Source: Verrucomicrobiota bacterium
Lineage (GTDB): Bacteria; Verrucomicrobiota; Verrucomicrobiia; Opitutales; JAKPNF01
Assembly: GCA_029548565.1 (NCBI GenBank)
Contig: JAKPNF010000083.1
Location: forward strand, 1 to 45,903
Direction of reading: 5' to 3'
DNA: 45,903 bases
The translations under genes and the position numbers were made by a program. The notes below the pieces were generated by a model. It saw nothing but the letters and a program-made list of their open reading frames with translations, was not told the DNA's origin and searched no databases. Shown piece after piece: positions 17,934 through 28,501 of this stretch. The first letter of the stretch is position 1; the number at the start of each line of letters is the position of its first letter.

Positions 17934-18203
17934 ATGGCCGCTTCGCCACATCGTTATCTCTTTGCGTTATTTTCGGTGCTTCTGGCAATCATTCTTTTTT
18001 CGCTGCTACTGACATGCACCGCCCAGCACCATCATGGGCAGTCCAATGCTCAAGACAATGCCATCATTGCCATCCTCTGGCTGCTGGCGCTATCAAATCT
18101 CTTTCTGAGCGCGCGCCTTAAACAGTTTCGCACGGCAGCCCATATTATTTGCTCGGCTGTGCTGTTGATCCTGTCCGTGTTCGCGTTAATGACGATGCTT
18201 TAA
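17934..18203 (+). CDS. Small hypothetical membrane protein
   Basis: Three predicted hydrophobic helices; convergent with the next gene, stops overlapping. Confidence 0.55.
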   Translation: MAASPHRYLFALFSVLLAIILFSLLLTCTAQHHHGQSNAQDNAIIAILWLLALSNLFLSARLKQFRTAAHIICSAVLLILSVFALMTML

Positions 18204-18844
18204 CGCGCCTTGCCAATCGGCACGGCAGGATTTCCATAAACCGAAAGCCCCGGCTTTATATTCACCACCACCGAGGAATTAATTCCCACACTGGCCCAAT
18301 CCCCGATCTTGATGGAGGGAACAGTGCTCACACCCGAGGCTAAAAAAACACCCTCGCCCACTTGGCAAAATCCGGTCACATCGCAAAAAGCGCTGAAAGT
18401 TGCCCAATGGCCGACACGCGCGTCATGTCCGCAGCCGCTCTTTGCGTTCAAGATGACGAAGTCACCTATAACGCAATCGCAAGTGATATTCACTTGCGGA
18501 CAAAAAATACAACCCTGCCCCACAACGACGTTACGCCCGATGCGGGCGGTCGGGTGAACAAGTGTCTCGAATTTTGCACCACGCCCAAGCAAGCGTTCGG
18601 ATATTTTTTTCTTTAAGGCGGGCGCGCCTATCGCCAGCAAAAAGGCGTCGTCCGGTTGTGGTGCGTAATCCGCAATGCAGCCGACAATCGGCCAAGGATA
18701 ATCGTAATCGTCCAAAACGGTGGCATTGTCATCAATAAAACCCTTTATGCGCCACGGCGCGCCGGCGGCGATGCAGTCTTCGGCATATCCGCACACTTCA
18801 CGGCCAAAACCGCCCGCGCCCACAATGATGATGTTTTTAGGCAT
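18200..18844 (-). CDS. NeuD/PglD-family left-handed beta-helix acyltransferase
   Basis: N-terminal IIIVGAGGFGREV and hexapeptide repeats (HPTARIGRNVVVGQGCIF...GHDARVGHWATFSAF). Confidence 0.88.
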   Translation of the reverse strand: MPKNIIIVGAGGFGREVCGYAEDCIAAGAPWRIKGFIDDNATVLDDYDYPWPIVGCIADYAPQPDDAFLLAIGAPALKKKISERLLGRGAKFETLVHPTARIGRNVVVGQGCIFCPQVNITCDCVIGDFVILNAKSGCGHDARVGHWATFSAFCDVTGFCQVGEGVFLASGVSTVPSIKIGDWASVGINSSVVVNIKPGLSVYGNPAVPIGKAR

Positions 18845-18848
18845 AAAA

Positions 18849-19601
18849 CTATCTATAGGCTAAAAATCCCCCGTCCACAATCATATCGCTGCCGCTGACC
18901 CAGCGGGCGGCGTCCGAAAGCAGGTAACGCGCCGCGCAGGCCACATCGCCTGTCGTGCCGAAGCCCAGCGGATATTTGCGTTGTTCGGCCAAGTACATTT
19001 CGTCTTGCTGCCCGAAAATAAACTCTGTCATCGGCGTATGCACCAGGCCAAAGGATAACGTGTTGGCGCGCACTTTACGCGGTGCCGCCTCCACTGCCAG
19101 AACCCTGGCGAATCCCTCAAGAGCCGCTTTGCTGGCCGCGTAGGCACCCAGTCGCGCGGAGGCGCTGTTCACCGCCACCGAGGATAAAAATAAAACGCAA
19201 GCGCCCTTGTTGATTTTCTTGGCGCGCAACAATTCGCAGGTCAATTGCATGGCGCGCGAAAAATTTATCCGCAGCGTCTGCGTGATTTCCTCAGCTGGCA
19301 TGAACTTGATCAGTGTTTTTCCAGGAACACCCGCCGCGTATACGAAGCCGTCGATATCCGGCAATTCAGCAACCAATCTTCCTAGGTCATTTTCGTTTTC
19401 CAGGTCGGCCACGATACCCAGATGTGCCTGCCCTGGCAGCGCATTCAAAAGCTTATCCAAGCGTTCCCGACTGCGTCCGGACACCACAACGCGGGCGGCG
19501 TCGCGCGCGCATTCTTGGGCAATGGCCGATCCCACGGCCGAAGTGCCTGCCGCGATAAAAACCGTTTTTCCCTGCAGACTGAACAGATCCGGGCACATCA
19601 C
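18849..19601 (-). CDS. Short-chain dehydrogenase/reductase, paralog 1 (atypical nucleotide-binding motif)
   Basis: YAASK catalytic motif and C-terminal SDMIVDGGFLAYR; AAGTSAVG in place of TGxxxGIG. Confidence 0.88.
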   Translation of the reverse strand: MMCPDLFSLQGKTVFIAAGTSAVGSAIAQECARDAARVVVSGRSRERLDKLLNALPGQAHLGIVADLENENDLGRLVAELPDIDGFVYAAGVPGKTLIKFMPAEEITQTLRINFSRAMQLTCELLRAKKINKGACVLFLSSVAVNSASARLGAYAASKAALEGFARVLAVEAAPRKVRANTLSFGLVHTPMTEFIFGQQDEMYLAEQRKYPLGFGTTGDVACAARYLLSDAARWVSGSDMIVDGGFLAYR

Positions 19602-19611
19602 AAAAAATTCA

Positions 19612-20676
19612 TTAAATTTCCGCGATAGGCGGACAGCTGATTTGCCGCGTGCGTATCACTGCGCTACCCCAGGAAAGACCCACACCAAAACCAGTCAGCA
19701 AGCTCGTCACCGAGCGTTCGCGCAGCGCCTGCGCGGCACCCGCCACCATCGTCAGTGGAATGCTTGGCGCGGAAGTGTTGCCATAATGGGTGAGCGAATA
19801 AGGGTGCTTTTCCGGCGCGATTTTGGCCATTTTTCGCACAGTTTCGTTAATTAGGCGGTTGGCCTGATGCGCGAACATAAAATCCACTTGTTCGGGGGAA
19901 AGCCCCGCTTCGCCCAACACACGCAGGACAGAGGGTTTTACCTCGCGCATCGCAAACTCCATAATGGGCGCGCCAGCCACGTAACTGTCCACACCGCGCA
20001 TTTTTGCACCGGGAGCATCCGGCACGTCTTTAAATTCAAAAGCCTCCGGCCCATCAATGGGATGGCGAAATCCGCCATACTTGCGAATAATGTGGTGATA
20101 CCCCGACCCGTCGGTGTTTAAATCAAAAAACATCTCGGGTGCCTGCTCGTCAAACCCCATTGCAGTAGCCGTGCCTGCGTCGCCAAAGAGCGGGTAACTC
20201 GATGTGCTCTCGGGCGTCAAAAAGGAAATTGCGTTGTCTCCGACCAGCAACAAAAGGCGCTTGAGCCGCATTGAGGACACCATTGAAGCGGCCACCGCCG
20301 ACCCGTACACATATCCCGAACAGCCCATGCCGATGTCAAAGGCCAGGCAGGATTTGGGCGCGCCCAGACGGTTTTGCAAAATACACGCGGTAGCCGGCAG
20401 CGGGTAATCCATGCTCTGGGAGACAAAAATGATGCCGTCGAGCGAGCCGGGATCCCATTTCAAATCAGCCAGCAAGTCCTGCGCGGCCTTCAGGCACATG
20501 TCGGAGGCGATCAGGCCGTCCTTAGCCCAGCGACGCTCGACAATGCCGGTTTGTTTGGAAAACAACGCCGCCTTTTCGGGCGTGTATTTTTCGTAATCGG
20601 CAACACGCAACACCGTCTTGGGCACGCAAGCCGACACGCCATAATACTTGACCGACGCGATATGGGACAGCGCCAT
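19612..20676 (-). CDS. 3-oxoacyl-ACP synthase III-like (KASIII), copy 1
   Basis: Cys-His-Asn triad: AFDIGMGCSGYVYG, FAHQANRLI, HYGNTSAPSIP. Confidence 0.92.
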   Translation of the reverse strand: MALSHIASVKYYGVSACVPKTVLRVADYEKYTPEKAALFSKQTGIVERRWAKDGLIASDMCLKAAQDLLADLKWDPGSLDGIIFVSQSMDYPLPATACILQNRLGAPKSCLAFDIGMGCSGYVYGSAVAASMVSSMRLKRLLLLVGDNAISFLTPESTSSYPLFGDAGTATAMGFDEQAPEMFFDLNTDGSGYHHIIRKYGGFRHPIDGPEAFEFKDVPDAPGAKMRGVDSYVAGAPIMEFAMREVKPSVLRVLGEAGLSPEQVDFMFAHQANRLINETVRKMAKIAPEKHPYSLTHYGNTSAPSIPLTMVAGAAQALRERSVTSLLTGFGVGLSWGSAVIRTRQISCPPIAEI

Positions 20677-20684
20677 AAAAACGC

Positions 20685-20909
20685 TTATCGTTTGGAATTG
20701 ATGAGCGTCTCAAGGTCGACGAGATTTTTGCACCCGGCAATCGCCTGACTTTCGATATTCACGCCATATTCAGAGGCTATCATCGCCATCGTGGACAACA
20801 ACGCCAGCGAATCCCATTGTGGCAAGTGCACGAAATCTGTTTGCGCGGTCAGTTCCACGTCTTCCAAGGCGTCCACATTGGCTTTCAAATTTTCAATCAG
20901 AGTTTCCAT
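20685..20909 (-). CDS. Stand-alone acyl carrier protein, copy 1
   Basis: 75-aa-class protein with phosphopantetheine-attachment motif QWDSLALLS. Confidence 0.85.
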   Translation of the reverse strand: METLIENLKANVDALEDVELTAQTDFVHLPQWDSLALLSTMAMIASEYGVNIESQAIAGCKNLVDLETLINSKR

Positions 20910-21002: not shown

Positions 21003-21755
21003 CTATCGGTAATGCAACATCCCTCCATCAATGACAAAATCCGTGCCAGTGACCCAACGTGAGGCATCCGCCAAAAAATAACGCACCGCGCAAGCGATGT
21101 CTTGCGGCACGCCGTACCCCAACGGGTATTTTGCCAAATCGGCCTTGATCGATTCCTCGCTGCGTCCCTCGCTGGCCGCCTGCGTCATAGGCGTTTGCAC
21201 CGAACCGGGGGAAATCGTGTTAGCGCGCACTTGGCGGGCGGCCATCTCCACCGCCAGCACGCGGACAAACCCCTGCATTCCCGCCTTGGAAGCGCAGTAA
21301 GCGCTCAACCCGGGAAACGCAACGCTGGCCAACACCGAAGAAATATAAACCATCGAGCCACCCTTGTTGATTTTTCGCTGCTTGATCAACGCTTGGCTCA
21401 GTTTGATCGTGCACAACAAATTAGTGTCCAAAACGGCCTCGATATCCTGCCAGTTGGAAAATTTAAGCAACGCGTTCATCGTCATGCCCGCACAGTGTGC
21501 AAAACCGTCCAATGCAGGCAGTTCTTTGATAATTCGCTCAATATCGGCATCGCAGGTGATATCCGCCACCAGGGCGCTATGGCCCTCGCCTTTCAAGGAG
21601 GCCAGCACGTCGTCCAAACGCTCGCGGTTGCGCCCGCTGATAATCACGCGCGCGCCAGCATTGGCACACTCATGCGCGGATGCCTCGCCGATACCGGAAG
21701 ACCCTCCTGTGATAAAAACAGTTTTTCCCTCCAAGCTAAAAAGATCTTTTTGCAT
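21003..21755 (-). CDS. Short-chain dehydrogenase/reductase, paralog 2
   Basis: ITGGSSGIGEA, YCASK and TDFVIDGGMLHYR. Confidence 0.93.
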   Translation of the reverse strand: MQKDLFSLEGKTVFITGGSSGIGEASAHECANAGARVIISGRNRERLDDVLASLKGEGHSALVADITCDADIERIIKELPALDGFAHCAGMTMNALLKFSNWQDIEAVLDTNLLCTIKLSQALIKQRKINKGGSMVYISSVLASVAFPGLSAYCASKAGMQGFVRVLAVEMAARQVRANTISPGSVQTPMTQAASEGRSEESIKADLAKYPLGYGVPQDIACAVRYFLADASRWVTGTDFVIDGGMLHYR

Positions 21756-21783
21756 AAATATAAGCGCCAGCGCGCGTGTGCCT

Positions 21784-21813
21784 ATGGTAATTACGCGCCA
21801 AAAACACTGTCAA
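21784..21813 (-). promoter_or_regulatory. Putative sigma70-like promoter upstream of SDR-2
   Basis: Minus strand TTGACA-N18-TACCAT, same architecture as 20957-20986. Confidence 0.55.
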
Positions 21814-21853
21814 CGCAAATAGCCTGCTGAAAAAGCGTTGGAGGTATTTTCAC

Positions 21854-21882
21854 TTGAAGAGCGCACAGGGCGTGCTTATCGT
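21854..21882 (+). promoter_or_regulatory. Putative promoter for the rightward KASIII-ACP-FkbH operon
   Basis: TTGAAG-N17-TATCGT upstream of the ATG at 21932. Confidence 0.4.
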
Positions 21883-21931
21883 TAAATTGTCTGTTTATGT
21901 AAAAAAAAAAAAGACCCGCTTAAAACAGCGA

Positions 21932-22993
21932 ATGAAGTACTTTTCAAAAATCACCGCATCGCATTACGTTTTGCCGTCCAAAGTCTTGACGAACGACGAT
22001 CTGGCCGAGCGTTTCGACCCAAAAAAAGTAAAAAGCATCGCCAAACTCAGCGGTATCACACAGCGGCGCGTAGCGCCGGAGGGCATGACGGCCTCTGATC
22101 TGGCGGTGGCCGCTGCCCAACGGATGATCGAGTCCGAAAACATCGACCGCGCGAGCATCGACATGGTCGTTTTCGTGACACAGACGCCAGATTATATCCT
22201 GCCCGCCACGGCATTCATCGTGCACGAAAAGCTCGGGCTCTCCAAAGACTGCGGAGCCTTCGACCTTTCGATGGGCTGCCCGGCCATGCCTTATGCGCTA
22301 AGCGTGGTCAACGGCCTGATAGCATCCGGCCAATGCAAAAAAGTCCTGCTCATTTTCTCCGAGACCATTACGCGGCTAGTCTATCCCAAAGACCGCTCGC
22401 TGGTCACCCTGCACGGCGACGGGGCGGCGGCGTTTATCCTGGAAGCGGCCGACGGCGATTACGGTTTTGAATTTGCCGACATTCATTCCGACAGCTCCGG
22501 CTGGAAGCACCTGCTCGTGCCCGCCGGCGGCATGAAACAGCGCATCAGCGAAGAAACAAAAAAAGAAACGACCGACGAAAGCGGCATCTGCACTACGCCC
22601 GAAAGCCTGCAAATGAACGGGGCGGCGGTGTTTCATTTTTCCATTTCAGAAATCCCCCCCGCCGTCAAGGCGTCGCTGCAAAAGCATTCCCTGAGTTTGG
22701 ACGACTGCAAGCTCGTGCTGTTTCACCAGGCCAACAAAATGATGGTCGACAGCATTTACAACGCCCTGCAAGTGCCGCAAGAAAAGCGCTTCTTCTTTAT
22801 GGAACAAATCGGAAATTTAAGCGCGGCCTCTACGCCCGTGCTGTTGGCCGAGGCGCTGCGCCAGGGCAAACTCGACGGCGGCGGCCGCGTGTTGCTGGCC
22901 TCTTTCGGCGTGGGGCTGACCTGGGGGGTCTTTTCCCTCAATTTCGCCCCCGGCAGCGTGAAGGCTTCACAAGCATCCACCGAGCTGGACTAA
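21932..22993 (+). CDS. 3-oxoacyl-ACP synthase III-like (KASIII), copy 2
   Basis: Cys-His-Asn triad: AFDLSMGCPAMPYAL, LFHQANKMM, QIGNLSAASTP; start at MKYFSKITASHYVLPSK preferred over the TTG at 21854. Confidence 0.9.
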   Translation: MKYFSKITASHYVLPSKVLTNDDLAERFDPKKVKSIAKLSGITQRRVAPEGMTASDLAVAAAQRMIESENIDRASIDMVVFVTQTPDYILPATAFIVHEKLGLSKDCGAFDLSMGCPAMPYALSVVNGLIASGQCKKVLLIFSETITRLVYPKDRSLVTLHGDGAAAFILEAADGDYGFEFADIHSDSSGWKHLLVPAGGMKQRISEETKKETTDESGICTTPESLQMNGAAVFHFSISEIPPAVKASLQKHSLSLDDCKLVLFHQANKMMVDSIYNALQVPQEKRFFFMEQIGNLSAASTPVLLAEALRQGKLDGGGRVLLASFGVGLTWGVFSLNFAPGSVKASQASTELD

Positions 22994-23003
22994 GGATTTT
23001 TCA

Positions 23004-23228
23004 ATGAGCAAACAAGAACAACTTCAGGAAATTTTTCGCGACGTGCTGGACAACGCCTTACTCGTGCTCACGCCCGAGCTGGCTCCCGCCAACTGCGGGG
23101 ACTGGGACTCGGTCGCGATGGTGCAAATCGTGTTGGCGGTCGAGTCGGCCTTCGGCGTGCGCTTTTCGACCGACGAGGTGGCCGACATCAAATCCGCCGC
23201 GGACATTTTTAAAAAAATAGACGCCTAA
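23004..23228 (+). CDS. Stand-alone acyl carrier protein, copy 2
   Basis: Phosphopantetheine motif DWDSVAMVQIV. Confidence 0.87.
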   Translation: MSKQEQLQEIFRDVLDNALLVLTPELAPANCGDWDSVAMVQIVLAVESAFGVRFSTDEVADIKSAADIFKKIDA

Positions 23229-23236
23229 TACCCCCC

Positions 23237-25090
23237 ATGCACGAGGACGCGCAGATACTTTTCGAGGACGCGAAAAAATTCGCCGAAAGCGGCGAATGGG
23301 AACGCGCCGTCGAGGCGCTCAAGTGCTTTACTGAGAAAACCACCGATTTCTCGCTGTGCCAAAAGGCCGCGAAGCTCGCGGGCAAAATTTTAAAGACATA
23401 CCCACCGGAAAAATTGCGCCCACTCAAAGTCGCGCTACTGTCCTCGAGCACGACCTTATTTTTGGAACCATTGCTGCCGCTTTACGGGCTTGTGCGAGGC
23501 TTGGATCTTCGCGTCAAAAGCGGGGATTTTGGCACATGGCGGCAAGATATTTTGGATCCGTCCTCGTGGCTGTACAGTTTTGAGCCGGATGTGGTCATCA
23601 TCGCCACGCATTACCGCGACGCGGCACTGCCGTCTTTTTCGCAAGACCCGCAAGGCGACGCGGAAAAAATCGCGGAACAGTTCGTGCAGTTTTGGGAGCA
23701 TCTTAAAAAGCACAGCCGCGCCGCCATATTGCAGCATGGCTTTGACCGCCCCAACGACGACGCAGCCGCTTATCTGAGCGCCACCCACCCGGGCGCACGG
23801 GCACGGGTGCTGGAGTCGGCCAACGCCGCCCTCGTGCGTCGCGCAGCCGAGCTGAGTGTCGTGCCCGTGGACATCGCCGAATTGCGCGCACGTTGCGGCG
23901 CCGATCAATGGGAAGACGCGCGACTGTGGCATCACGCAAAACAGCATCCTGCCCCCGCGGGGTTGCCGCTGCTGGCGCGCGAATATGTGCGCGCGATTTG
24001 TGCCAAACTCGGCCTCTCCAAAAAAGTGTGCGTGTGCGATTTGGACAACACGCTGTGGGGCGGCGTGATTGGCGAGGACGGCATCGACGGCATCACGCTG
24101 GGTACGCCGAACGCCGCAGGCGAGGCCTTTGCCGCCTTTCAAACTTATTTGAAAGAACTTAAGCAGCGCGGCATTTTGCTCGCGGTGTGTTCCAAAAACA
24201 ACGAGGCGGACGCGCTCTTGCCCTTCGAAAAACATCCCGCGATGGTGCTTAAAAAGGACGATTTTGTTTCCTTCAAGGCGAATTGGTCGCCCAAGTCCGA
24301 AAATATCGCGCAGATTGCAGCCGAATTAAATCTTGGGCTAGATAGCTTTGTGTTCGTGGACGACAACCGCGCGGAAATCGAGCAGGTGCGCGCCGCGCTG
24401 CCGCAGGTCGCCTGTGTGCAACTGCCGCAAGACTCGGCAGAGTACGTCGCGGCGCTGTCGCGGGCGCAACTTTTTGACACGGCCACCCTGTCTGCGGACG
24501 ACCTGTCGCGCAGCCAATCCTACCACGCCAACGCCGCGCGCGCGCAGGCGCAATCGGGCGCCACGGATTTAAAGGATTTTTTGCAATCGCTGCAAATGCG
24601 CTGCGCTGCCGCGCCTATCGGCGAGGGCAACCTCGCGCGCGCTGCCCAACTACTGGGCAAAACCAACCAGTTCAACCTCACCACCCGCCGCCACAGCGCC
24701 GAAGCCATTTTAAAAATGGCGGCCGAGAAAAACGCCTTCGCACGCAGCTTCCAACTCGCCGACAAGTTCGGCGACAACGGCATCGTGGGCGTGCTGATCG
24801 CCCTGCCCAAAGAAGACGGCGTGCTGGAAATCGACAGCTTTGTGATGAGCTGCCGCGTCATCGGCCGCGGCCTTGAAAATTTCATGATGGCCGAGCTGAT
24901 CGCTTTCGCACGCGAGCACAATTTCAAACACCTGCGCGGTGTCTACATCCCCACCGCCAAAAACGCACAGACCGCCGATTTTTACGAACGCCTGGGCTTC
25001 ACTCCTAAAGAAAAATCGAGCGACCAAAGCAGCTTCGCCCTCGACCTCGAACACGCGAAAATCCCCGAGACGTTTATCGAAAAGATATAA
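23237..25090 (+). CDS. FkbH-like HAD-IIIC family protein (candidate glyceryl/acyl-ACP loading enzyme)
   Basis: HAD motif VCDLDNTLWGGVIGEDG, LAVCSKNNEADALLPFEKHPAMVLKKDDF, KTNQFNLTTRRHS and GNAT-like C-terminus. Confidence 0.92.
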   Translation: MHEDAQILFEDAKKFAESGEWERAVEALKCFTEKTTDFSLCQKAAKLAGKILKTYPPEKLRPLKVALLSSSTTLFLEPLLPLYGLVRGLDLRVKSGDFGTWRQDILDPSSWLYSFEPDVVIIATHYRDAALPSFSQDPQGDAEKIAEQFVQFWEHLKKHSRAAILQHGFDRPNDDAAAYLSATHPGARARVLESANAALVRRAAELSVVPVDIAELRARCGADQWEDARLWHHAKQHPAPAGLPLLAREYVRAICAKLGLSKKVCVCDLDNTLWGGVIGEDGIDGITLGTPNAAGEAFAAFQTYLKELKQRGILLAVCSKNNEADALLPFEKHPAMVLKKDDFVSFKANWSPKSENIAQIAAELNLGLDSFVFVDDNRAEIEQVRAALPQVACVQLPQDSAEYVAALSRAQLFDTATLSADDLSRSQSYHANAARAQAQSGATDLKDFLQSLQMRCAAAPIGEGNLARAAQLLGKTNQFNLTTRRHSAEAILKMAAEKNAFARSFQLADKFGDNGIVGVLIALPKEDGVLEIDSFVMSCRVIGRGLENFMMAELIAFAREHNFKHLRGVYIPTAKNAQTADFYERLGFTPKEKSSDQSSFALDLEHAKIPETFIEKI

Positions 25091-25092
25091 GT

Positions 25093-26481
25093 TTACGATT
25101 GCCCTGTCATTTTTTCAGGGACGACCGCCTTCTCAAATTCCTCCGCCGTCAGCAGTTTTAATTCCACGGCGGCTTCCTTGAGCGAGATGCCTTTTTTGTG
25201 GGCGAGCTTGGCGATCTTCGCGGCGTTGTCGTAGCCGATGACAGGGTTTAACGCCGTCACAAGCATGAGGCAGTTTTCGACGTAGTATTTGAGCTTTTCC
25301 GGATTCGCCGTGATGCCGCTGACGGCGTATTTCCCAAAACTGTGGCACGCGTCGGCGATCAGGCGGATGGAGTTCAGCAGGTTAAAAATGATGACGGGCT
25401 TGTAGACGTTCAGCTCAAAATTTCCCTGCGAACCGGCAAAGCCGATCGCCGCGTCGTTGCCCATCACCTGCGCGCACACCATCGTGAGCGCCTCGCACTG
25501 CGTGGGGTTGACCTTGCCCGGCATGATGGAGGAACCCGGCTCGTTTTCCGGCAGGTTGATCTCGCCCAACCCGCAGCGTGGCCCGCTGGCCAGCCAGCGG
25601 ATGTCGTTGGCGATTTTCATGAGGTCGGCGGCCAGTGTTTTCAAACTTCCACTCATCGCCACCAACTCCCCGTGCGAGGACAAGGCCGCGAATTTGTTCG
25701 GCGCGCTGACAAAGGGCAAGCCCGTCAACCGCACGATTTTTTCGGCGGCCAATTGCGCGAATCCCTTGGGCGTGTTCAGCCCCGTGCCGACCGCCGTGCC
25801 GCCCAAGGCGAGTTTGTACACGTCGTCCAAACTGCCGCGCACGCGCTCGATGTTGGCGGCCACCAGTGCCGCGTAACCGGAAAACTCCTGCCCGAGCGTG
25901 ACGGGCGTAGCGTCCTGCAAATGCGTGCGGCCGATCTTCACGAGTTTTGAAAATTCATCCGCTTTTCGCGCGAGCGATTCGTGCAAATTTTCCAACTCCG
26001 GCAGCAGGCGCTGCGTCACCTGTTCGGCGGCGGCGATCGCCATCGCGGTCGGAAAGGTGTCGTTGGAAGACTGCGATCGGTTGACATCATCATTGGGGTG
26101 CACGGGTTTTTTGGAGCCAATCTGCCCGCCGGCCAGCTCGATCGCGCGGTTGGAGATCACCTCGTTGGCATTCATGTTGCTCTGGGTGCCGGAACCGGTC
26201 TGCCAGATGTGCAGCGGGAAATGCTCGTCGAGCTTTCCGTCTATCACCTCGTCGGCGGCCCGGCAGATCAAAGCGGCCTTGTCCTCGGGCAGCACCTTTA
26301 GCTCGGCATTGGCCTGCGCGCAGGCTTTTTTGAGCACGCCCAGCGCGCGTATCATCTCGCGCGGCAGCACGTCGTGCCCGATGTTAAAGTGGATGAGCGA
26401 GCGGGCCGTCTGTGCGCCATAGTACTTATCATAAGGCACTTCTATTTCACCCATGCTGTCGGTTTCCGTGCGTGTTTTCAT
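25093..26481 (-). CDS. fumC: Fumarate hydratase class II
   Basis: [16 protein letters not shown] signature; start at [16 protein letters not shown] preferred over 26556. Confidence 0.96.
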
Positions 26482-26602
26482 AGTGTGGCAAGAATTTATT
26501 TTACAAAAAATTTGCTTTTCTCCAAAAGCGGCTGACATTGGAGAGTGTTGACCCATTCAACTTATTTCACAAACCCATTCAATTCAAACACGGATTAAAA
26601 TC

Positions 26603-27055
26603 ATGAAAAAACGTATACTGACATTGGCCGGCGTGTTAGCCGCTGCCACCGCTTTAATGTTCGGCGCCGCCGAAGAAAAATCAGCCAACTGGCTGACCGA
26701 TTACGAGGCCGCCGCCGCCCTCGCGGCCAAGGAGAGCAAGCCCGTCATGGTGGTTTTCACCGGCTCGGACTGGTGCCCGCCCTGTATCGTGATGTGGAAG
26801 ACGGTGTTCGCCTCCGACGCGTTCATCAGTTACGCGGATAAAAACCTGGTGCTGGTAAAGGTGGACTTCCAAAAAATGGAGGAAATCACCGGCAAGGCGC
26901 TGGCCAAGCACTCGCCGCTGGCGGCCAAGTACAAGATCTACGCCTTCCCGACCATGCTGCTGCTGTCCAAAGACCAGGTTGAAATCGACCGCATGACCGG
27001 CGCGAAGACCGAGAATGTACTGCTGACCTGGCTCAAGGACAACGCGCAGAAATAG
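26603..27055 (+). CDS. Secreted thioredoxin-family protein, paralog 1
   Basis: Signal peptide and VVFTGSDWCPPCIVMWKTVF. Confidence 0.88.
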   Translation: MKKRILTLAGVLAAATALMFGAAEEKSANWLTDYEAAAALAAKESKPVMVVFTGSDWCPPCIVMWKTVFASDAFISYADKNLVLVKVDFQKMEEITGKALAKHSPLAAKYKIYAFPTMLLLSKDQVEIDRMTGAKTENVLLTWLKDNAQK

Positions 27056-27074
27056 GCGCCCCGTCCTCACCTTA

Positions 27075-27103
27075 AAAAACGCCGCTTCAAGCGGCGTTTT
27101 TTT
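27075..27103 (+). terminator. Rho-independent terminator after thioredoxin paralog 1
   Basis: AAAAAACGCCGCTTCAAGCGGCGTTTTTTT. Confidence 0.88.
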
Positions 27104-27127
27104 ATGTGTTTAAATAGAGTTTTCCCG

Positions 27128-27155
27128 TTGAACAGGATGCCAACAGGTGTATAAT
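27128..27155 (+). promoter_or_regulatory. Sigma70-like promoter for thioredoxin paralog 2
   Basis: TTGAAC-N16-TATAAT, 36 nt before ATG 27191. Confidence 0.65.
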
Positions 27156-27190
27156 TCAGGCAACCTCACCGCGAAAGGAATTTTTATATT

Positions 27191-27622
27191 ATGAAAAAAA
27201 CCATCCTTACACTGCTGTGCGCACTGGCGTTGCCGCTGAGCGCCCACGCCGCCGACTGGCTGACCGACTACGACAAAGCCCTGGAAGTAGCCAAAGAAAA
27301 AAATAAGCCCGTCCTGATACTGTTCACCGGCTCGGACTGGTGCCCGCCGTGCATGCGCATGGAAAAAACCGTGTTTTCCTCCAAGGAATTTTCCGACCTG
27401 GCGGACAAATACTTCGTCCTGATAAAACTGGACTCTCCGAAAAACAAACCGCAAAGCGCCGAGGAGAAAAAGATGGTCGCCAAATTGGGCGCGCAATACG
27501 AGGTTCAAGGCGTGCCCACCATTGTCATCCTCGGCAAAAAAGGCAAGGAGATCGACCGCATCGTAGGCTCGCGCGACAAGGAATCCTTCCTTAAATGGCT
27601 GACCGCCCTGCGCAACAAATAG
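27191..27622 (+). CDS. Secreted thioredoxin-family protein, paralog 2
   Basis: Signal peptide and LILFTGSDWCPPCMRMEKTVF. Confidence 0.88.
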   Translation: MKKTILTLLCALALPLSAHAADWLTDYDKALEVAKEKNKPVLILFTGSDWCPPCMRMEKTVFSSKEFSDLADKYFVLIKLDSPKNKPQSAEEKKMVAKLGAQYEVQGVPTIVILGKKGKEIDRIVGSRDKESFLKWLTALRNK

Positions 27623-27626
27623 GCCG

Positions 27627-28501
27627 ATGAAAAGAACTATACCCCTTATCGCGCTACTGTCCTTGTGCGCGGGTGCTGTCCTTGGCACCGAGGCCAAGTG
27701 GTTTGAGGACTACGACCAAGCGGCAAAGCAACTGTCGCGCAGAAAAAACACCTGCTTATGCTGTTCACCGGCTCGGACTGGTGCCCGCCCTGCCAGAGCC
27801 TGGAGACCAATGTGCTTGCCTCGCCGCACTTCGTCCAGTTCGCCGAACAAAACCTCGTGTTGCTCAAGCTCGATTACCCGCGCTACAAAAAGCAGTCCAG
27901 CAAGCTCACGCGCCAAAACGAAAGGCTCGCCAAGCAGTACAAGCAAAAGGGCTACCCCACCATCGTCGTCTTAAACAGCCAAGGCGAGGAAATGGACCGC
28001 TTGACAGGAGCTTATGCGAGCGCGGAGGAATTGGTGTACTGGCTCACATGGGTGATGCCCTCTGAGCGGCGCCTTAAAGACTATGAGCAATGGAAGGAAA
28101 AGAACGCCTCGTTACACTGGCACTTTGACTTCGACGAGGCAAAACAAAGCGCCCGTTTGCAAAAACATCCCATCCTTGCATTTTTTCTGGGTCCAGACTG
28201 GTCGCAAGCCAGCAGACAAATTGAAACAATCCTGCTCGAAAGCGACGAGTTTAAAAAACTGGCCGCCAAAAATTTCTGCCTACTGCTTTCCGAAAGCCTG
28301 AGCGATGCCTACCGCCCGCTTCAACAACTCAGACAGTACAGGGAAACCGCCAGGCAGTTTGACTTAAACCCTAGCAGCTACCCCATAATTCTGCTGCTAG
28401 ACATGAACGGCAAGGCGCTTGCAAGCAAGCAGGGCAGCGTCGAGTCGGTGCAAGAGTTCAAACAGTGGCTCAAGAATAACGGTATGGCGATCAAGGAATA
28501 A
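27627..28501 (+). CDS. Tandem-domain secreted thioredoxin-like protein, paralog 3, interrupted by a frameshift at 27743-27749 (slippery site, genuine mutation or sequence error)
   Basis: ORF 27627..27974 gives signal peptide plus WFEDYDQAAKQLSRRKN; ORF 27758..28501 continues in the -1 frame with LMLFTGSDWCPPCQSLE, then a second Trx-like domain. Confidence 0.8.

Follow-up and report, generated by a model that had tools for sequence, protein, structure and literature searches.

An FkbH-coupled KASIII operon beside a PglD-type cassette in an Opitutales genome and its proposed role in sugar N-acylation

Described N-acylation cassettes and FkbH systems

The viosamine island of Pseudomonas syringae carries vioA, the ketoacyl-ACP synthase III (KASIII) gene vioS, the reductase gene vioR, acp and vioB, and without vioR, flagellin no longer carries the modified N-(3-hydroxy-1-oxobutyl) viosamine (PMC3927599). 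The wfpC-G genes of the Flavobacterium psychrophilum O-polysaccharide are proposed to make a 3,5-dihydroxyhexanoyl group for UDP-Qui2NAc4N (PMC6519341). FkbH proteins load glyceryl onto acyl carrier proteins (ACPs), and tetronate operons combine FkbH and an ACP with a FabH-like protein, an Agg4-like acyltransferase and an Agg5-like dehydratase (PMC7489565). An FkbH-domain gene, cj1302, is present in the flagellin glycosylation locus of Campylobacter jejuni (PMC7099621). Full-text literature searches returned no match for FkbH with O-antigen, and nothing relevant for FkbH with polysaccharide or glyceric acid.

The stretch of DNA analyzed here (the window) comprises 45,903 nucleotides of contig JAKPNF010000083.1 from a Verrucomicrobiota bacterium of the order Opitutales. 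It contains clustered KASIII, ACP, SDR and PglD/VioB-type acyltransferase genes, as do the Vio and Wfp systems. The P. syringae island shares the KASIII, ketoreductase, ACP and acyltransferase, and N-acylates a 4-amino-4,6-dideoxy sugar; however, it has one KASIII, no FkbH and no second ACP, and its sugar genes lie inside the island whereas here they are on other contigs. The wfpC-wfpG cluster comprises two KAS, an ACP, a reductase and a PglD homologue, as here, but neither FkbH nor the second ACP (ACP2), and Phe157 is present in the related KASIIIs of Flavobacterium among the sampled loci (residue numbering follows E. coli FabH, the sequence of which was verified against 1HN9). The flagellin/VioA cluster on pBGF3 of Burkholderia glumae (L091), with the order VioA-KASIII-ACP-KASIII-SDR-acetyltransferase, is also comparable to the cassette, but it has no FkbH, Phe157 is present, and its KASIIIs are 32–37% identical to the FkbH-linked enzyme described below, KASIII-2. 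The tetronate glycerate-utilization operons of the agglomerin, RK-682 and tetromadurin type have FkbH, a stand-alone ACP and a FabH-like protein in common with the rightward operon of the window. They differ in a KASIII of another clade without the catalytic His, and in an extra E2-type acyltransferase, a dehydratase and a PKS. The cassette type is already known from Vio and Wfp; its FkbH-coupled version is new, with a chemistry predicted from sequence.

Organization of the locus and its genome

The ORF map places two divergent operons between a housekeeping YicC gene on the left and a fumarase gene on the right. The leftward operon (minus strand) has the order PglD-SDR-KASIII-ACP-SDR. Read from the divergent intergenic region that separates both operons (21756-21931), it encodes the ketoreductase-like SDR1 (21003-21755; PF13561/PF00106), ACP1 (20685-20909; PF00550), the glycan-type KASIII-1 (19612-20676; Pfam/NCBIfam, residue table and tree), the ketoreductase-like SDR2 (18849-19601; Pfam profile match) and a nucleotide-sugar N-acyltransferase of the PglD/NeuD/VioB family (18200-18844). 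The latter scores 161.3 bits with TIGR03570 against a cut-off of 160.8, and its best solved relative is VioB 7txp. The rightward operon (plus strand) consists of KASIII-2 (21932-22993; 353 amino acids, ATG at 21932), ACP2 (23004-23228; PF00550, PP-binding, with its serine in WDSV) and FkbH, a predicted glyceryl transferase/phosphatase (23237-25090), with gaps of 10 nt between KASIII-2 and ACP2 and 8 nt between ACP2 and FkbH. An earlier note on this DNA had limited the operon to three genes, which the coordinates and the flanking SDR1 and fumarase genes bear out. The fumarase gene (25093-26556, minus strand) converges on FkbH, and the operon therefore ends there.

FkbH comprises an N-terminal extension, a HAD-IIIC domain and a C-terminal acyltransferase-like domain. 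The assignment is based on TIGR01686 (306.6 bits, cut-off 146.65), FkbH_N (PF21211), the HAD motif DLDNTLW and an FkbH tree; the gene is present as a single copy in the genome. GC3 is 0.57-0.66 in the leftward operon, 0.71-0.75 in the triad and 0.75-0.86 in the left-flank genes, and the lower values of the cassette suit acquired DNA without proving it. A profile scan of the flanking genes found no glycosyltransferase or sugar-nucleotide genes around the cassette within the window. The clustered genes include no acyl-CoA or hydroxyacyl dehydrogenase and no O-methyltransferase, the partners of methoxymalonyl/hydroxymalonyl-ACP formation, and the methoxymalonyl extender pathway was rejected on this ground. 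To the right of the fumarase gene, three genes in a row encode thioredoxin-fold-like proteins with signal-like N-termini (26603-28501).

The genome assembly consists of 170 contigs and is 97% complete. Genes for a 4-amino sugar are present on another contig than the cassette: at the end of C156, a PglF-like 4,6-dehydratase gene lies beside a DegT aminotransferase gene that is truncated where the contig stops, together with an EpsI/DUF3485 gene. The position of EpsI/DUF3485 genes (L104:13811-14590, L075:14934-15749 and L076:12102-12788), near the FkbH cassette in relatives and beside PglF/DegT in this genome, hints at an exosortase-linked exopolysaccharide. Four KASIIIs are encoded in the genome: KASIII-1, KASIII-2, a FabH whose gene immediately follows plsX on C32, and an OleA-like KASIII that adjoins an alpha/beta hydrolase on C153. 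The plsX and Ole names are our own reading of the sequences. The C153 locus (L083:7917-12519), in which the OleA-like KASIII is accompanied by a haloalkane-dehalogenase-like hydrolase, an SDR and an FAD protein, is a candidate hydrocarbon (ole-like) cluster.

Residues of KASIII-2, phylogeny and association with FkbH

KASIII-2 was assigned to an FkbH-linked KASIII clade on the basis of ACP_syn_III profiles (Pfam/NCBIfam), residues, tree and an AlphaFold model (29-row alignment; mean pLDDT 95.3, pTM 0.94). The best PDB matches of the model identified by Foldseek, 3gwa, 3gwe and 4efi, are relatives of the two B. glumae KASIIIs and the nearest solved folds. The catalytic Cys116, His265 and Asn295 are intact and the GFGxG motif is kept as GFGVGLTWG. 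This triad is that of decarboxylative condensation, which argues against the non-decarboxylative or off-loading role suggested in the earlier note. In FabH, Arg36 and Trp32 contact CoA and Arg151 stacks on the adenine (PMC4606726). In KASIII-2 and its clade, Trp32 is replaced by Ser, Gly, Asn, Asp or Thr, Arg36 by Leu, Ile, Met or Val, and Arg249 by Met or Thr. Gly114 is mostly Ala, Ser or Thr, and Phe157 is His (13 rows) or Gln (1 row); His161 of KASIII-2 occupies this position. KASIII-1 has also lost Trp32, Arg36 and Arg249, and keeps Phe157. In a docking study of mycobacterial FabH, a model result for another enzyme, Phe157 is one of the active-site contacts (PMC9121832). The altered acyl substrate previously suggested for KASIII-2 is likely, with Trp32, Arg36 and Arg249 gone and His at position 157.

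The motifs GCPAMPYAL, FHQANKMM and GNLSAAS of KASIII-2 and GCSGYVYG of KASIII-1 had been read correctly. The contrast drawn between the first of these and housekeeping FabH is real, as every FabH among the 30 genomes sampled from the order carries AAC(S/A/T)G, but 'PAM' is not conserved in the nearest relatives. These have AAF, PAF, SAF, SGY, STY, SAY, TSF or GSF at the same place, and GCPAM was rejected as a functional signature. The 30 housekeeping FabHs all retain Trp32, Arg36 and Arg249; residue 157 is Phe in 29 and Leu in one (L138).

In a 56-row tree, KASIII-2 belongs to a 14-row clade of FkbH-linked KASIIIs from Verrucomicrobiota and Planctomycetota (bootstrap 100, SH-aLRT 100), which is nested in a superclade of glycan-type KASIIIs (100/100) apart from FabH. 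The earlier note had proposed this phylogeny, and had named clustering with FabH, or being the only FabH of the genome, as speaking against its reading. In this tree KASIII-2 sits with the glycan-type enzymes, not with FabH or the tetronate type, and the plsX-linked FabH is present.

A second clade of FkbH-linked KASIIIs has Tyr157 (L050, L053, L058, L059, L062, and L070 without FkbH). The His and Tyr clades do not go back to one origin, since the AU test rejects joining them (p 0.002). Among 48 other non-housekeeping KASIIIs, 47 have Phe157 and one has Ser. Three KASIIIs have no FkbH nearby and yet lack Phe157, L032 (His), L070 (Tyr) and L065 (Ser). The Oribacterium locus with the Ser157 enzyme (L065:4382-12188) encodes three KASIIIs, two ACPs and several SDRs. 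In these sequences residue 157 covaries with FkbH in just two independent clades, which amounts to little independent replication. A hold-out set was drawn phylum-wide after the signature had been found (28 of 388 genomes with E <= 1e-60; 20 new neighborhoods examined). FkbH was found at one of the 20 loci (L177), the KASIII of which has His157 and Ala114 and has lost Trp32, Arg36 and Arg249; the residue-scored KASIIIs of the remaining loci all have Phe157. L177 adds one positive, probably of the His clade judging by its other residues, and does not count as a third origin.

FkbH was matched in 18 of the 132 genomes of the order. In eight near-full-length FkbH loci besides that of the window (L073-L080), ACP2 lies beside FkbH in all eight and a KASIII in seven; the ACP2 counterpart is next to FkbH in the Verrucomicrobiota and Planctomycetota relatives, and the ACP1 counterpart accompanies PglD and SDR. 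PglD is present at the triad locus in all eight sampled Verrucomicrobiota loci of the His clade (L031, L073-L079), with DegT nearby in L075, L078 and L079 and PglF in L079. L177, from elsewhere in the phylum, contains DegT, PglD, ACP, KASIII (His157), SDR, FkbH, DegT and PglF within ~12.5 kb. The SDR1 counterpart adjoins the KASIII-FkbH unit in L031, L073, L075, L077 and L177. The closest locus, from an Opitutales MAG of yak abomasum (L031; KASIII-2 65% identical), has PglD-SDR-ACP1 divergent from KASIII-VOC-ACP2-FkbH. It is much like the window, plus a VOC gene (PF13669, Glyoxalase_4) and minus KASIII-1 and SDR2. The VOC gene, which we take to be methylmalonyl-CoA epimerase-like, separates KASIII from ACP2/FkbH in many relatives; it is missing at the locus in the window, and no close copy was found in the genome. 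The VOC fold handles enolates, so the relatives' VOC would suit epimerization next to a ketone, and its absence here may mean that the stereochemistry or the product differs. In an assembly of 170 contigs, fragmentation may account in part for this absence and for PglF/DegT lying elsewhere.

The Planctomycetota copies (L033, L035, L036 and L071) have no PglD nearby. In at least two of them, at contig ends (L033:1-1533 and L035:3-710), KASIII-ACP-FkbH-VOC follows a tandem-ACP protein with the look of a PUFA synthase, possibly a separate polyketide use of the unit. Rumen and gut Opitutales carry a KASIII-2 orthologue alone, with no ACP or FkbH nearby (L032:1374-2828; L042:3-695, partial), in a shared gene order that includes genes for a CstA-like transporter and an anaerobic ribonucleotide reductase. 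KASIII-ACP-PglD cassettes without FkbH are common in the phylum (L182, L184, L186, L188, L190, L191, L195 and L196), L182 having the identical KASIII-ACP-SDR-PglD gene set; the PglDs of this L182-L196 set are 40–52% identical to that of the window.

A proposed pathway and the alternatives to it

From the observed gene content, clade, residue signature and co-occurrence of PglD, DegT and PglF, we infer substrates and an order of steps by combining the Vio/Wfp hydroxyacyl precedent with a glyceryl-loading FkbH. The reading we prefer, to which we give about an even chance, is that the triad and the leftward operon together form one cassette, which would make an ACP-bound polyhydroxyacyl group and transfer it onto the 4-amino group of a UDP-4-amino-4,6-dideoxy sugar destined for a surface glycan. 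FkbH would make glyceryl-S-ACP2 from 1,3-bisphosphoglycerate, as is known for the family. The active-site Cys of KASIII-2 would then take glyceryl from ACP2, not from CoA, and a decarboxylative condensation with malonyl-ACP would follow, as the retention of Cys-His-Asn and the loss of the CoA contacts suggest; the choice of glyceryl over another acyl group is a prediction from sequence. SDR1 would reduce the ketone, a further two-carbon extension may come from KASIII-1 and SDR2, cf. the two-KAS Wfp cassette, and PglD would transfer the finished acyl group onto the sugar amine. Counted against this are the lack of sugar genes around the cassette, the missing VOC gene, the Planctomycetota copies without PglD and a residue 157 correlation spanning two clades.

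KASIII-2 could instead be a non-condensing shuttle that passes glyceryl from ACP2 to ACP1 or the acyltransferase, such that the sugar would carry a simple glyceramide. FkbH and an ACP alone would supply the glyceryl group, some FkbH-ACP pairs have no adjacent KASIII (L080, L089 and L090), and cj1302 is a precedent for FkbH in a glycosylation locus; the loss of the CoA-binding residues also agrees with a shuttle. We consider it unlikely, as the whole decarboxylative set, GFGVGLTWG included, is kept, and an SDR, for which a glyceramide would have no need, travels with the KASIII in many relatives.

KASIII-2, ACP2 and FkbH form one tight operon, are found together also in distant relatives, and the 157 substitution tracks FkbH. 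It is accordingly rather improbable that two pathways share the locus, KASIII-1 and KASIII-2 making a 3-hydroxyacyl or 3,5-dihydroxyacyl group from acetate while FkbH-ACP2 serve another step, although two KASIIIs and an SDR are enough to make 3,5-dihydroxyhexanoyl in the Wfp model and orphan His-clade KASIIIs occur (L032 and the partial L042).

The earlier note had matched the triad to tetronate core logic, in which KASIII-2 would fuse glyceryl-ACP2 with a beta-ketoacyl thioester and release a tetronate. The three protein families, including an FkbH-like protein with a stand-alone ACP, match the tetronate glycerate-utilization operon (PMC7489565), and the Planctomycetota unit does come after a tandem-ACP protein. 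Two reference loci on plasmids have the orders KASIII-FkbH-ACP-E2-monooxygenase-alpha/beta hydrolase-PKS (Methylosinus, L139) and KASIII-FkbH-ACP-E2 (Pseudalkalibacillus, L140), and there are Streptomyces relatives too. None of these reference KASIIIs is, to our knowledge, experimentally characterized. The HQAN His and the GFGxG motif, both kept in KASIII-2, are lost in all six tetronate-type KASIIIs (PPQL/TPQL and ESSKW/EASKW, respectively), including those beside E2 in L139 and L140; the six keep Trp32 and group in a separate clade (100/100), apart from KASIII-2. The tetronate-type FkbHs likewise form one clade, with the FkbH of the window elsewhere. Among the scanned flanking genes there is no Agg4-like (E2-type) acyltransferase, Agg5-like dehydratase, hydrolase, or PKS or other beta-ketoacyl donor. 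A tetronate core was rejected on the KASIII residues, the clade and the missing partner genes, and is very unlikely. Topologies that unite the KASIII-2 clade with the tetronate type (p 0.10) or with housekeeping FabH (p 0.15) survive the AU test, and both verdicts therefore rest on residues, gene content and topology. Slimmer again are the prospects of a non-decarboxylative joining of glyceryl-ACP2 with an ACP1-bound ketoacyl group by KASIII-2, its Cys-His-Asn intact, which would give the sugar a tetronate- or furanone-like cap by a chemistry of separate evolutionary origin from that of the known tetronate KASIIIs. That KASIII-2 is an ordinary fatty-acid FabH paralogue has next to no likelihood and was dismissed, since it matches the broad beta-ketoacyl-ACP synthase 3 subfamily of NCBIfam (270.7 bits, cut-off 249) but scores 229.6 with the fabH model, under the cut-off of 292.1, lacks Trp32, Arg36, Arg249 and linkage to fatty-acid genes, and is only 35% identical to the genome's own FabH behind plsX (L082).

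KASIII-ACP-FkbH triads should not be named tetronate clusters before the catalytic His of the KASIII has been checked, and Phe versus His, Gln or Tyr at position 157 offers a cheap candidate sequence rule for marking FkbH-coupled enzymes. If the polyhydroxyacyl cassette reading is true, the locus would encode a free-standing type II system that starts a short chain from a glycolytic intermediate and uses it to decorate a glycan, and polyhydroxyacyl amides would be predicted on the surface sugars of Verrucomicrobiota.
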